Assembly (NCBI GenBank): GCA_016194905.1 | Contig: JACQAP010000028.1 | Span: forward strand, 124,001 to 188,000 | Source of the DNA: Betaproteobacteria bacterium | GTDB taxonomy: Bacteria > Pseudomonadota > Gammaproteobacteria > Burkholderiales > JACQAP01 | Reading direction: 5' to 3' | DNA length: 64,000 bases | Made by a program: the position numbers and the translations under genes | The notes under the pieces: generated by a model | What the model saw: only the letters and a program-made list of their open reading frames with translations | Databases searched by the model: none | What the model was told of the DNA's origin: nothing | Shown: piece by piece, positions 11,670-60,180 of the stretch | Layout of the letters: each line of letters begins with the position of its first letter | How positions within the stretch are numbered: the first letter of the stretch is position 1

Positions 11670-12506
11670 ATGAAAACAATCAGCGAACATAAATGCTTTG
11701 AAGGCGTGCAGGGTTACTACTCGCACGCTTCGAAGGAGATCGGGCTGGACATGAAGTTCTCGGTGTTCCAGCCGCCGCGGGCGAAGTCGGCCAAGCTGCC
11801 GGTGCTGTACTACCTCGCGGGACTGACCTGTACCGAAGAGACCTTCGCCATCAAGGGGGGCGCACAGCGCATCGCGGCGGAACTGGGTCTGATGCTGGTC
11901 GCGCCCGACACCAGCCCGCGCGGTGCGAACCTACTGGGGGAGTCCGACTCCTGGGATTTCGGCGTCGGCGCCGGCTTCTATGTCGATGCCGCTCGCGAAC
12001 CGTGGTCCAGGCATTACCGGATGTACAGTTATGTCACGCGTGAACTGCCGGCGCTGATTGCAGAGAAATTCCCCGCGGATGCAGATCGGCAGGGCATCTT
12101 CGGCCACTCCATGGGCGGACACGGCGCGCTGGTGTGCGCGCTGCGCAATCCCGGACAGTACAAATCGCTTTCCGCATTCGCGCCGATCGCCGCGCCGATG
12201 CGCTGCCCTTGGGGGAACAAGGCGTTCACGGGGTATCTAGGTGACGACCATGCCGCGTGGCGGGAATACGATGCCAGCGAACTGGTGAAGCGTGCGCGGT
12301 TTGCAGGCCCGATTCTGGTGGATCAGGGACTGGCAGATAAATTCCTCTCCGACCAGCTCTATCCCGAAATCCTCGAGGCGGCGTGCCGTGATGTCGGCCA
12401 ACCGCTGACGTTGCGCCGTCATGAAGGCTACGATCACGGCTACTTCTTCATCTCGACCTTCATGGAAGATCATCTGCGGCATCATGCTTCGCAGTTGAAC
12501 CCCTAA
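11670..12506 (+). CDS. frmB: S-formylglutathione hydrolase
   Basis: A 278-residue serine esterase of the esterase D family that hydrolyses S-formylglutathione to formate and glutathione, the second step after FrmA. The nucleophile is S147 in GHSMGG; the oxyanion region is YYLAGLTCTEE with the conserved Cys; the late DQGLADKF and GYDHGYFFI contain the catalytic Asp and His. The start ATG lies nine bases after the right arm of element A. I see no Shine-Dalgarno sequence before it, so initiation may depend on read-through from frmA or on mRNA structure. The stop codon merges with the next palindromic element. Confidence 0.93.
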   Translation: MKTISEHKCFEGVQGYYSHASKEIGLDMKFSVFQPPRAKSAKLPVLYYLAGLTCTEETFAIKGGAQRIAAELGLMLVAPDTSPRGANLLGESDSWDFGVGAGFYVDAAREPWSRHYRMYSYVTRELPALIAEKFPADADRQGIFGHSMGGHGALVCALRNPGQYKSLSAFAPIAAPMRCPWGNKAFTGYLGDDHAAWREYDASELVKRARFAGPILVDQGLADKFLSDQLYPEILEAACRDVGQPLTLRRHEGYDHGYFFISTFMEDHLRHHASQLNP

Positions 12507-12682
12507 CCGCAAAGGCGCAAAGACGCAAAGGGTTCGCAAAGGAAAACAAAGTTCGCAAAGGAAAACAAAAGCAGAGTAAAAGCGGACCAGAGTTTGACCG
12601 GTCCTGTCGAGTAGGTGCGATATCCAGTTTCTTGAACGCTATTCTTTGCGTTTCCTTGGCGCCTTCGCGTCTTGGCGGTTCC
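12504..12682. repeat. Palindromic intergenic element, family B, copy 1
   Basis: The left arm (12504-12553) starts with the frmB stop codon itself (TAACCGCAAAGGCGC) and has GCAAAG units plus a duplicated TTCGCAAAGGAAAACAAA. The right arm (12644-12682) is complementary (CTTTGCG, TTTCCTTGG, CGCCTTCGCGTCTTGGCGG). The spacer is about 90 bases. The next gene's AAGGAG starts directly after the right arm. Confidence 0.85.
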
Positions 12683-49177: not shown

Positions 49178-49218
49178 GTTCTCTCCTCTTGTTAATTCTT
49201 ACTTCTTGTTAACCCAAC

Positions 49219-49380
49219 TAACCGCAAAGGCGCGAAGGCGCAAAGTAAACGCAAAGAAAAACGAATGAAAACCGGTCAGAAAACAACCCACCTCTGAATT
49301 GGAATGTGTTTGAGTTTATTACCCGTTCGTTGTCAATGCTTCCCTTCGCGTTTCCTTTGCGCCTTCGCGCCTTTGCGGTG
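49219..49380. repeat. Palindromic intergenic element, family B, copy 2
   Basis: The left arm (49219-49257) has AACCGCAAAGGCGCGAAGG and GCAAAG units; the right arm (49340-49379) has CTTCGCGTTTCC, CTTTGCGCC and TTCGCGCCTTTGCGGT. The spacer is about 80 bases. It lies between the MFS gene start and the stop codon of the hydrolase gene upstream. Confidence 0.88.
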
Positions 49381-49399
49381 AAGGGTTATCCGCGGAGGG

Positions 49400-52470: not shown

Positions 52471-52478
52471 TGCATACA

Positions 52479-52731
52479 CCCAACACAGCAGCTTCAGCTC
52501 CAAGTGTTCCCTTGAGTGTTTCACCTTAAGGCGCAGAGGGCGCGGAGGACGCAGAGGTTAAGCAAGACGAGAAGTGGCGAACAACTGGAAACATGGCCCA
52601 TGCGGAATTATCGGCGGCTGTTTCTCAAGTTATCGTTATCTTTGATTTTCTCTGCGTCCTCTGTGCTCTCCGTGCCTTAAGGTGAAACACTCAAGGGAAC
52701 ACTTGGAGCTGAAGCTGCTGCGTTGGGTTTT
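52479..52731. repeat. Palindromic intergenic element, family A, copy 3 (near complete)
   Basis: The left arm (52479-52557) and right arm (52650-52731) are nearly perfect reverse complements over about 79 bases: CCCAACACAGCAGCTTCAGC, CCAAGTGTTCCCTTGAGTG, TTTCACCTTAAGG, then GCAGAGGGCGCGGAGGACGC. The spacer is about 92 bases. This is the most complete copy of the family. It begins nine bases after the binding-protein stop codon and ends about 13 bases before the Omp85 stop codon. Confidence 0.95.
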
Positions 52732-58964: not shown

Positions 58965-59150
58965 CAACGCAAAGGCGCAAAGGAAAAGCTAGGGGACAGA
59001 GGTGAATGGCTACGGGCAGGTTCTCCCACCAGGTATGTGCGGGCGCTCTGAGATCCCGCCATATCTGCGTCGAACACTCAGACTTTCATCCAGAAGCGTT
59101 CTTATCTTTCCTTCGCGAACCTTTCTCTTCCCTTTGCGTCAACGCTCTTG
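58965..59150. repeat. Palindromic intergenic element, family B, copy 3
   Basis: The left arm (58965-58990) has AACGCAAAGGCGCAAAGGAAAAG. The right arm (about 59106-59145) has CTTTCCTTCGCGAACC, CTTTCTCTTCCCTTTGCG and ends GTCAACGC. The spacer is about 115 bases. The sequence after the right arm (to about 59175: CTTGAACTTTCTTT and TTTGAGACGGATT) recurs at 60227-60265. Confidence 0.8.
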
Positions 59151-59165
59151 AACTTTCTTTAATTA

Positions 59166-59370
59166 TTTTGAGACGGATTGCGACGCGGCGGGGACCGCCG
59201 GCAAGACAATCTCCGTGTGGCCACCGCGCCCGCCAGATCAGAATCTCAAAGATGCCTTCGGGCTTGAACGTTTCGCGGTAGGCGTAGCCGTTATTCTGCA
59301 GGATGCTATAGAGCGGCCAAGGCTGGCGATCTATGATCATCAGTAACTGTTCGTCGGGCCGGTCACCCTA
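59166..59370 (-). pseudogene. Fragment resembling a DUF2249 domain gene
   Basis: On the minus strand a frame reads GDRPDEQLLMIIDRQPWPLYS, then ILQNNGYAYRETFKPEGIFEILIWRAR. The pattern (E-x-L, D-x-x-P-x-PLY, N-GY, FEILI) resembles the core of DUF2249 domains. A TAG precedes it at about 59370 and no start-like N-terminal part is found upstream. Its downstream end runs into the family B arm. It is best read as a gene remnant between repeats. Confidence 0.45.
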
Positions 59371-59640
59371 ACACGATGGCAGTTCGCGACGATCGGCAGT
59401 CGAGCTGCCGCGCGCCGCGTGCACTCGGTGAAATGCGGGCGATCACTATTCTGGAGAAGGTGCAGAAATCCATTGACTTTGACGGAGGAAGGGCGCTCAC
59501 TGGATTCGCTTCCGCGCGCTGGACCGGGGTAGATTCTCAAGCCCAAGGCATGACGATCCGGTTGTTGCCTAAGGCATTCGCTGTTGCGCGCGCCATTTCG
59601 TTCGGGTGTGCCTGATGCGGAGACGGGCGGCGACCACCTT
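59371..59640. other. Non-coding stretch, nothing assigned
   Basis: Open frames exist on both strands (for example 59376-59615 plus) but none has protein-like character, a ribosome site or a recognisable motif. I see no hairpin with a T run. Confidence 0.5.
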
Positions 59641-59674
59641 AAACCCGATGTTTGAGGGTTATCTCGACCAGAGC

Positions 59675-59734
59675 GCCGAAGCAAACCGCAAAGGGCGTGA
59701 CGCGAGTCGCGCCCTTTGTATTTGCCGTTTCGGC
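59675..59734 (+). ncRNA. Strongly structured RNA hairpin capped by a GNRA tetraloop (candidate leader element)
   Basis: GCCGAA (59675-59680), GCAAA (59681-59685), internal CCG, then CAAAGGGCG-T-GAC (59689-59701), loop GCGA, GTC-G-CGCCCTTTG (59706-59718), internal TA, TTTGC (59721-59725), bulge CGT and TTCGGC (59729-59734). The inner helix is 13 continuous pairs with one U-G, closed by a GNRA loop; two outer helices of 5 and 6 pairs stack below. No T run follows, so it is not a usual terminator. It ends 43 bases before the ATG of the Cys-rich gene and could be its 5' leader or a separate small RNA. Confidence 0.6.
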
Positions 59735-59777
59735 AAAGACGTGCCGGCCGGCCGCGGATTTATTTGGGAGACTTATC

Positions 59778-59912
59778 ATGACGCTTTGCCCAGTTGCGTT
59801 GGCAGTGGGCTGCATCAAGTGCCCCGTATTCAACATCTGCCCCGTCAAGGGGATTATCGGCGACTACAAAAAAGACGCACCGCCGCCGGCGGACCTAAAG
59901 AAAAAGCAGTAA
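59778..59912 (+). CDS. Small Cys-rich protein (44 residues)
   Basis: A short frame with GGGAG eight bases before its ATG. The sequence begins MTLCPVALAVGCIKCPVFNI and has Cys at 4, 12, 15 and 21 (C-x7-C-x2-C-x5-C), then CPVKGIIGDYKKD and a charged tail. The Cys arrangement suggests a metal (iron-sulfur or zinc) site. I recall similar short conserved proteins in proteobacteria but no function. Too short for many gene finders. The structured hairpin lies just upstream. Confidence 0.75.
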   Translation: MTLCPVALAVGCIKCPVFNICPVKGIIGDYKKDAPPPADLKKKQ

Positions 59913-60180
59913 ACGCAGGTTGTTCCTTTTTGCCAGTCACGCCCACTTTCGCGATGTCCGCTCTCAGGGAAAGTTCGCCTCCCACCTGACCGGCAGGTTT
60001 TGCCCGTTTTAAGGCGTCCGTAAATGCACCACGCCGATTCGCGTACCGAACCGGCATGTCGGGACAATTCAGAGACTCTGCGAACAAAGATCGGCGCCGG
60101 GTTTCTTGCCCCGATTTCCTTTGCGCCCTCCCTTGCTTTTCGTAAAAGGGTACTCCACGCTATTGCGAGGGTATCTGCGA
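59913..60180. other. Intergenic stretch without recognised features
   Basis: No convincing frame, terminator or promoter is seen between the Cys-rich gene and the family A half element. Confidence 0.5.

Follow-up and report, generated by a model that had tools for sequence, protein, structure and literature searches.

The GNRA-capped hairpin at positions 59675-59734 of the window, the 64,000-nucleotide stretch of betaproteobacterial DNA analysed here, very probably marks the end of the gene of an additional, diverged 6S RNA; a role as switch of the Cys-rich gene that follows it is not supported. 6S RNA acts as a promoter mimic that captures RNA polymerase. In many proteobacteria its ordinary gene adjoins zapA.

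Hairpin and upstream RNA

Folding of positions 59665-59744 gave an outer helix of 6 bp, a middle helix of 5 bp and an inner helix of 14 bp closed by a GCGA loop, with a free energy of -39.9 kcal/mol against a mean of -24.5 for shuffled sequences (z -5.2; 0 of 200 shuffles equal). The three-helix stack given in a preliminary description of this DNA is thus real, with an inner helix of 14 bp and not 13, and its distance of 43 bases to the ATG is confirmed (hairpin 3' end at 59734, ORF of 44 aa at 59778-59912). In the fold of the longer RNA 59508-59734, the pairing probability of the reported outer and middle helices falls to 0-0.05, since the partner of 59675-59682 is then 59508-59515 (seven pairs at 1.0). 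The inner stem at 59688-59719 has a pairing probability of 0.95-1.0 in the same fold. Most likely, the reported hairpin is composed of two parts, an inner terminator stem and the 3' arm of a stem that closes a longer RNA, as modelled in the following features.

59426-59747, + strand: genus-conserved segment (RNA gene with promoter and terminator), from BLASTN in the genus
59473-59478, + strand: putative -35 element TTGACT, a consensus match only; TTGAC is conserved here in the genus and many relatives
59496-59501, + strand: putative -10 element CTCACT, spacer 17, a weak TATAAT match
59508-59682, + strand: 6S-like RNA domain of ~175 nt (closing stem, bubble, apical arm), from covariance-model match, covariation and identity to the 6S gene of the same genome
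59508-59515, + strand: 5' strand of the closing stem, pairing with 59675-59682 (P=1.0 for 7 pairs), in covarying columns
59675-59682, + strand: closing stem, 3' strand, identical with the left outer arm of the hairpin as first described; from pairing and covariation
59688-59719, + strand: putative terminator hairpin of 14 bp, loop GCGA at 59702-59705, then ATTTG; covariation, and T tracts in some relatives
59778-59912, + strand: 44-aa Cys-rich ORF with four Cys, a neighbour outside the RNA gene

BLASTN matched the segment 59426-59747 in every one of the four genus genomes; outside the window's own genome the identities are 86% over 323 nt (G003:C8), 78% over 262 nt (G001:C15, match ending at 59723) and 84% over 237 nt (G002:C345, match ending at 59720). 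Copies of the window RNA are termed A-type. Of 36 non-redundant copies, L151 and L159 were dropped as ordinary 6S genes, and the other 34 were aligned with the window core. This first alignment of 35 sequences contains 35 pairs, 15 of which show two-sided changes, mostly in the closing stem and the lower apical arm. A wider alignment of 22 sequences, the window and 21 copies chosen by the authors, has 44 predicted pairs, and two-sided compensatory changes occur in 19 of them, including the closing stem with its 3' strand at 59675-59682. The collecting pattern fixed the core letters, leaving the upper apical stem invariant by selection, so invariance of these letters proves nothing. The consensus folds show a rod with a closing stem, a large central bubble and an apical arm; in the single-sequence fold of the window copy, part of the bubble appears as short helices. 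The 6S-like domain alone has a z of -3.2 against mononucleotide shuffles. The preliminary description had raised the possibility of a small RNA in its own right. This comes close: a conserved, covarying small-RNA gene is predicted, and the hairpin, as terminator plus closing-stem arm, forms its 3' end.

The inner stem at 59688-59719 looks like the intrinsic terminator of the 6S-like RNA gene. The GC-rich, stable stem-loop of such a terminator is present in the window, where the transcript itself is a prediction. The GC part of the inner stem is followed by TTTGTATTTG, whose first five letters are paired in the fold. The claim that no T run follows holds only for a long one, since this tract is present and is short and broken. 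Some homologous hairpins have T-rich ends with long T tracts (CCCTTTTTTTG in L104, CCCTTTCTTTTTT in L157 and CCCTTTGTTTTTT in L181), which makes doubtful the further claim that the hairpin is not a usual terminator. A GC-rich 14-bp stem, a GNRA loop and, in some homologues, a T tract are shared with known rho-independent terminators, whereas the window hairpin differs from them in having just TTTGTATTTG as its T tract.

Measured from the first letter of the core word CGCTGTTG, the inner stem begins ~104-112 nt downstream, both within the genus and in several families beyond it. Only 6 of 53 copies fit a strict text pattern for the window-type hairpin, and the terminator alignment therefore consists of 15 hand-picked carriers, with L189 and L217 left out because their hairpins differ. 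In these carriers 92.9% of 210 cells are paired, and sliding the partner strand brings the pairing down to 32-59%. The covariation score of the hand-picked set is 0.245 compared with 0.178 for shuffled alignments (0 of 500). Two-sided changes in 4 of 14 pairs are weak evidence alone, because 60 of 500 shuffles reach the same count. The loop is of the GNRA type in 14 of the 15 carriers, the exception being GGTA in L112. The computation shows that these terminator hairpins are homologous among relatives. Compensatory changes, which the preliminary description had proposed to look for, were found both in the terminator hairpin and in the closing stem and lower apical arm of the 6S-like RNA. Many 6S-like copies are without the window-type terminator hairpin and have different 3' ends.

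A second conserved element was seen by eye 3' of the 6S-like RNA in L101, L106, L110, L111, L117, L120, L123, L128, L135, L140, L145, L168 and L171. It comprises GGAG, a tiny ORF often starting ATGAAANTTCCGACA or similar (degenerate in some copies) and hairpins such as GCCGGC..GCCGGC, CGTCACGGTNACGTGACG and GCCAC..GTGGC, followed by a terminator. Rfam gave no convincing match to this element in L120 (RsmY at E 4.1).

Homology to ordinary 6S RNA and distribution

Searches with Rfam at gathering thresholds found no family match in the whole window, and at E≤5 over 59100-60100 nothing relevant was found. The 6S family RF00013 matched none of the 6S-like copies in L031-L033 at E≤1. In 12 genomes carrying the 6S-like RNA, RF00013 at E≤10 left the A-type copies unmatched and gave two weak extra matches, neither of them A-type. 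The window RNA lies below the RF00013 gathering threshold of 46.4 bits and is therefore not filed as a member of that family. Each of these 12 genomes has one ordinary 6S match, in seven of them above the RF00013 cut-off, and each of the four genus genomes likewise has one, with one of the four under the Rfam cut-off. The ordinary 6S gene of the window's own genome is at G000:C19:211801-211977 (60.3 bits with RF00013). BLASTN aligned it (subject G000:C19:211836-211922) to window positions 59560-59652 with 71% identity over 93 nt (E 0.0027), the sole other match with E<0.1 in the own genome for the upper part of the segment.

A covariance model, R1, was built from 35 A-type copies only, without ordinary 6S genes. 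R1 matches ordinary 6S genes in register at 39 of 41 loci with E values of 1.8e-17 to 0.031, missing L061 and L205; the match to the ordinary 6S gene of the own genome has 72 bits (E 1.8e-17). The 41 loci were chosen by RF00013, and since neither set was chosen with the other's model, this comparison is the main evidence of homology. Computation thus shows homology to the ordinary 6S genes, and the reading of the window RNA as a diverged 6S RNA is well supported by these alignments. On the window, R1 matches 59519-59675 with 140.9 bits (E 2.9e-36), where the window copy, like many others, is a training sequence scored by its own model. The R1 scores fall into two groups, with A-type copies at 99.6-158.5 bits and the others at no more than 72.4 bits in one run and 77.5 bits in a run over the order.

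Comparisons of the window family with 6S RNA (SsrS, RF00013) showed similar lengths (~175 nt against 177 nt for the own 6S match), the same rod fold and end-to-end alignment. A 6S RNA of 177 nt is also reported in Herbaspirillum (PMC7011215). The window family is unlike RF00013 6S RNA in being unmatched by that model in the 12 genomes, in forming a separate group in the tree, in coexisting with the ordinary gene in the checked genomes and in having two types of promoter among its copies.

Of 200 genomes searched by BLASTN, 15 have a match at E≤0.001. A-type RNA was matched in the four genus genomes and, reaching into further families, in G156, G148, G118, G091, G061, G131, G025 and G005. The match in G035 is an RF00013 6S gene, and that in G064 resembles ordinary 6S on the basis of its R1 score only (76 bits). 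The match in G129 (L089, G129:C76 1501-1539) was dropped, being only a similar terminator (GGGCGCGACGCGAGTCGCGCCC) past the end of a gene that looks porin-like by eye. A pattern derived from the window RNA and scanned over the genome contigs gave 99 stretches. A script rule sorted the copies into 53 A-type and 48 ordinary 6S, but two of the 53 are not A-type by the model: L185 has an R1 score of 72.4 bits and sits with ordinary 6S in the tree, and L194 has no R1 match. L151, L158 and L159, sorted by script as the new type, are ordinary 6S genes and were removed.

A FastTree phylogeny of 92 rows separates 54 A-type copies and L233 from 37 others with a local support of 0.94. The tree alignment was fitted to R1 (154 model positions), so the tree counts as moderate evidence that the A-type is a single clade, separate from the ordinary 6S genes. 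L233 (G025) has an R1 score of only 71.2 bits, yet it groups with the A-type copies. Among 399 genomes of the order, 184 have any R1 match at E≤0.001 and 20 have a match of at least 99 bits (~21 with G025), indicating a patchy family. A class-level sample of 369 genomes contains a single one with a match at E≤1e-14, the genome of the window itself. Viral contigs, searched with the exact pattern, and plasmids, searched at E 1e-5, gave no match to the 6S-like RNA. Nearly all A-type records are titled metagenome-assembled genomes, under Betaproteobacteria, Burkholderiales, Nitrosomonadales, Sterolibacteriaceae and other names, in the window's order. Several copies may occur in one assembly, as in CANKAJ (L128, L137) and CAISYC (L140, L150, L182). 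Two 6S-like copies stand in tandem, 351 bp apart, in L161 and L171. In L035, a cobalamin riboswitch (2321-2564, 80.4 bits) is located at a distance of ~0.7 kb from the ordinary 6S gene that belongs to the window's genome.

Promoters of the copies

The putative window promoter is weak and sigma70-like. The predicted start, ~7 nt past the -10 element, is 59508, the first base of the closing stem. The counterparts of the -10 element in relatives are CTTACT, CCAACT or TCTACT, and many relatives have TTGAC-17-YYWACT at the corresponding place.

Sigma28-like sites, scoring at least 11 of 16 against TAAAGTTT-11-GCCGATAA in a 46-nt upstream stretch, are present in 21 of 52 copies, a set that includes near-identical copies and two rows that are not A-type; the cut-off was chosen after the sites had been seen. 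The same score is reached by 0.7% of mononucleotide shuffles and by one of 47 ordinary 6S genes. Twenty of the 21 sites are located at -101 to -107 from the core (L101, L111, L137, L141, L143, L145, L146, L148, L150, L153, L157, L160, L167, L169, L172, L175, L177, L181, L182 and L184); the exception, L187, carries a site of the sigma70 type. Several genomes contain copies of both classes. The sigma28-type copies are the deepest A-type branches in the tree as drawn, which suggests, without proof, that this promoter is the older one.

The 20 sigma28-like copies belong to 17 genomes, 16 of which were searched. FliA is above the cut-off in ten of the 16, and FliA or flagellin in 11. Neither was found in G061 (96% complete), G201, G203, G207 and G208, and these five genomes, G061 at its completeness among them, weaken the sigma28 reading. 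FliA is also above the cut-off in 10 of 20 genomes assigned to the sigma70 class, three of which hold both classes. Within the genus, G000 has FliA and flagellin, G003 has FliA only, and G001 and G002 have neither. It is a tentative idea, and a rather doubtful one, that the copies form a new betaproteobacterial 6S subfamily whose ancestral promoter was of the sigma28 (FliA) type, with sigma70-type promoters, as in the window, arising later. If true, a 6S RNA would be made when flagellar genes are on, tying motility to global control of RNA polymerase. Among titles and abstract openings of the open-licence literature, neither a second betaproteobacterial 6S RNA nor a FliA-driven one was found; an earlier mention is possible.

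Function, alternative readings and significance

The gene would be transcribed on the + strand from ~59508 by a sigma70-type promoter. The transcript would take the 6S rod shape outlined above, from closing stem through central bubble to apical arm, and would end at the GNRA-capped hairpin 59688-59719 acting as an intrinsic terminator. The 6S RNA of Escherichia coli is described as a rod that imitates melted promoter DNA, holds the holoenzyme and is released by synthesis of a product RNA (PMC4211561). By homology, the window RNA may likewise imitate an open promoter, bind the RNA polymerase holoenzyme and be freed by serving as template for a product RNA. The likeliest use of a second copy would be a different timing, with the second 6S RNA active under conditions other than those of the ordinary one.

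Second 6S genes beside the ordinary one are shared with Bacillus subtilis (6S-2) and Legionella pneumophila (6S2). According to one report (PMC3048289), the timing of the second 6S RNAs of both species differs from that of the first, and Legionella 6S2 has its own expression pattern and was found with Rfam at an E value of 2.454e-15. As far as these descriptions go, the window family differs from Legionella 6S2, which is detectable by Rfam, in escaping detection by Rfam and in belonging to the window's order. Firmicutes with two 6S copies have been catalogued (PMC8414754).

A 6S-shaped RNA with another job, such as binding the core polymerase or the holoenzyme of another sigma factor, is unlikely but deserves consideration given its divergence past Rfam detection, its own group in the tree and its different promoters. 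Ms1 RNA of actinobacteria is described as structurally related to 6S RNA, with a 6S-like shape, but is said to bind the core polymerase (PMC9130861). However, the window family has retained end-to-end alignment with ordinary 6S genes.

Decay of the segment into a functionless 6S pseudogene is very improbable. The patchy distribution, a sequence outside the Rfam model, the weak -10 element and the short T tract of the window copy would fit such a decay, but the segment is conserved at 78-86% across the genus, compensatory changes extend beyond the letters fixed by the pattern into the closing stem and the lower apical arm, and promoter elements are found at a fixed place. The window copy alone may nevertheless have decayed.

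A cis-acting leader of the 44-aa Cys-rich gene, the role proposed for the hairpin in the preliminary description, has very little left in its favour. Hairpin and gene share a strand, with the hairpin 43 bases ahead of the gene, and the gene belongs to a conserved family: protein matches at E≤0.01 occur in 23 of 200 genomes, counting that of the window. However, in G003 the RNA (59426-59747) and the gene (59740-59911) match separate contigs, C8 and C168. The gene matches the window there only past the hairpin, from 59740 onward (90%, with a protein 98% identical). The G003 assembly is fragmented; yet C168 extends ~1.7 kb upstream of the gene and C8 ~1 kb downstream of the RNA, and the partner is absent from both stretches. 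The order is reversed in G001, where the gene precedes the RNA, and a fragment from the gene's 3' end (window 59856-59908) directly precedes the RNA in G003:C8 as well. A link between hairpin and gene in other genomes, which the preliminary description had suggested checking, was not found either: within 400 nt upstream of 23 other gene matches, the best matches to the 22-nt hairpin core have 11-15 of 22 letters, and L010 has a different strong hairpin upstream of its Cys-rich gene. The hairpin thus does not stay upstream of the gene across species, and the two are independent.

The junction between RNA and gene in the window is at ~59740-59747, past the hairpin, and the hairpin therefore belongs with the RNA piece. 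Judged from these sequence comparisons, the Cys-rich gene is a chance neighbour of the 6S-like RNA. The DNA upstream of the gene in G003:C168 differs from the window, which suggests that the window gene has lost an older upstream region at ~59740. Pfam and NCBIfam gave no family for the 44-aa protein, and RnfB was rejected (E 0.2, far under the cut-off). The small protein has the pattern MTLCPIA..C.KCP.F..CP.K..IGDY and a paralogue in the own genome at G000:C15:109804-109902.

The earlier suggestion that the hairpin derives from one of the dispersed GCAAAGG (family B) repeats came from its inner GCAAAGG word, and inverted repeats of this type do occur elsewhere in the window. It can be set aside, as BLASTN of the own genome found no second copy (only 16-20-nt stretches), a 3-mismatch pattern added to the window copy (both strands) only two loose matches, one on C5 and one elsewhere on C28, whose loops differ, and the hairpin covaries and is at a similar distance from the RNA core in other families. 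Dispersed inverted repeats of the GCAAAGGCGCAAAGG and CTTAAGGTGAAACACT types, with arms of at most 79 nt, are located at 52478-52728, 12498-12680 and 49218-49387 of the window.

6S RNA belongs to the very few RNAs whose known target is RNA polymerase itself, and only in a few lineages is it known to be duplicated. Read as the end of a second 6S RNA gene, the hairpin itself is an ordinary terminator, and the 6S paralogue family outside the Rfam model is the more interesting part. Counts of 6S genes from RF00013 alone are too low in the window's group, and R1 recovers both kinds. The 6S function of the window family and its link to sigma28 are suggested by sequence. A subfamily invisible to RF00013 that coexists with ordinary 6S RNA under mixed promoters would offer a natural experiment in the division of labour between 6S copies.
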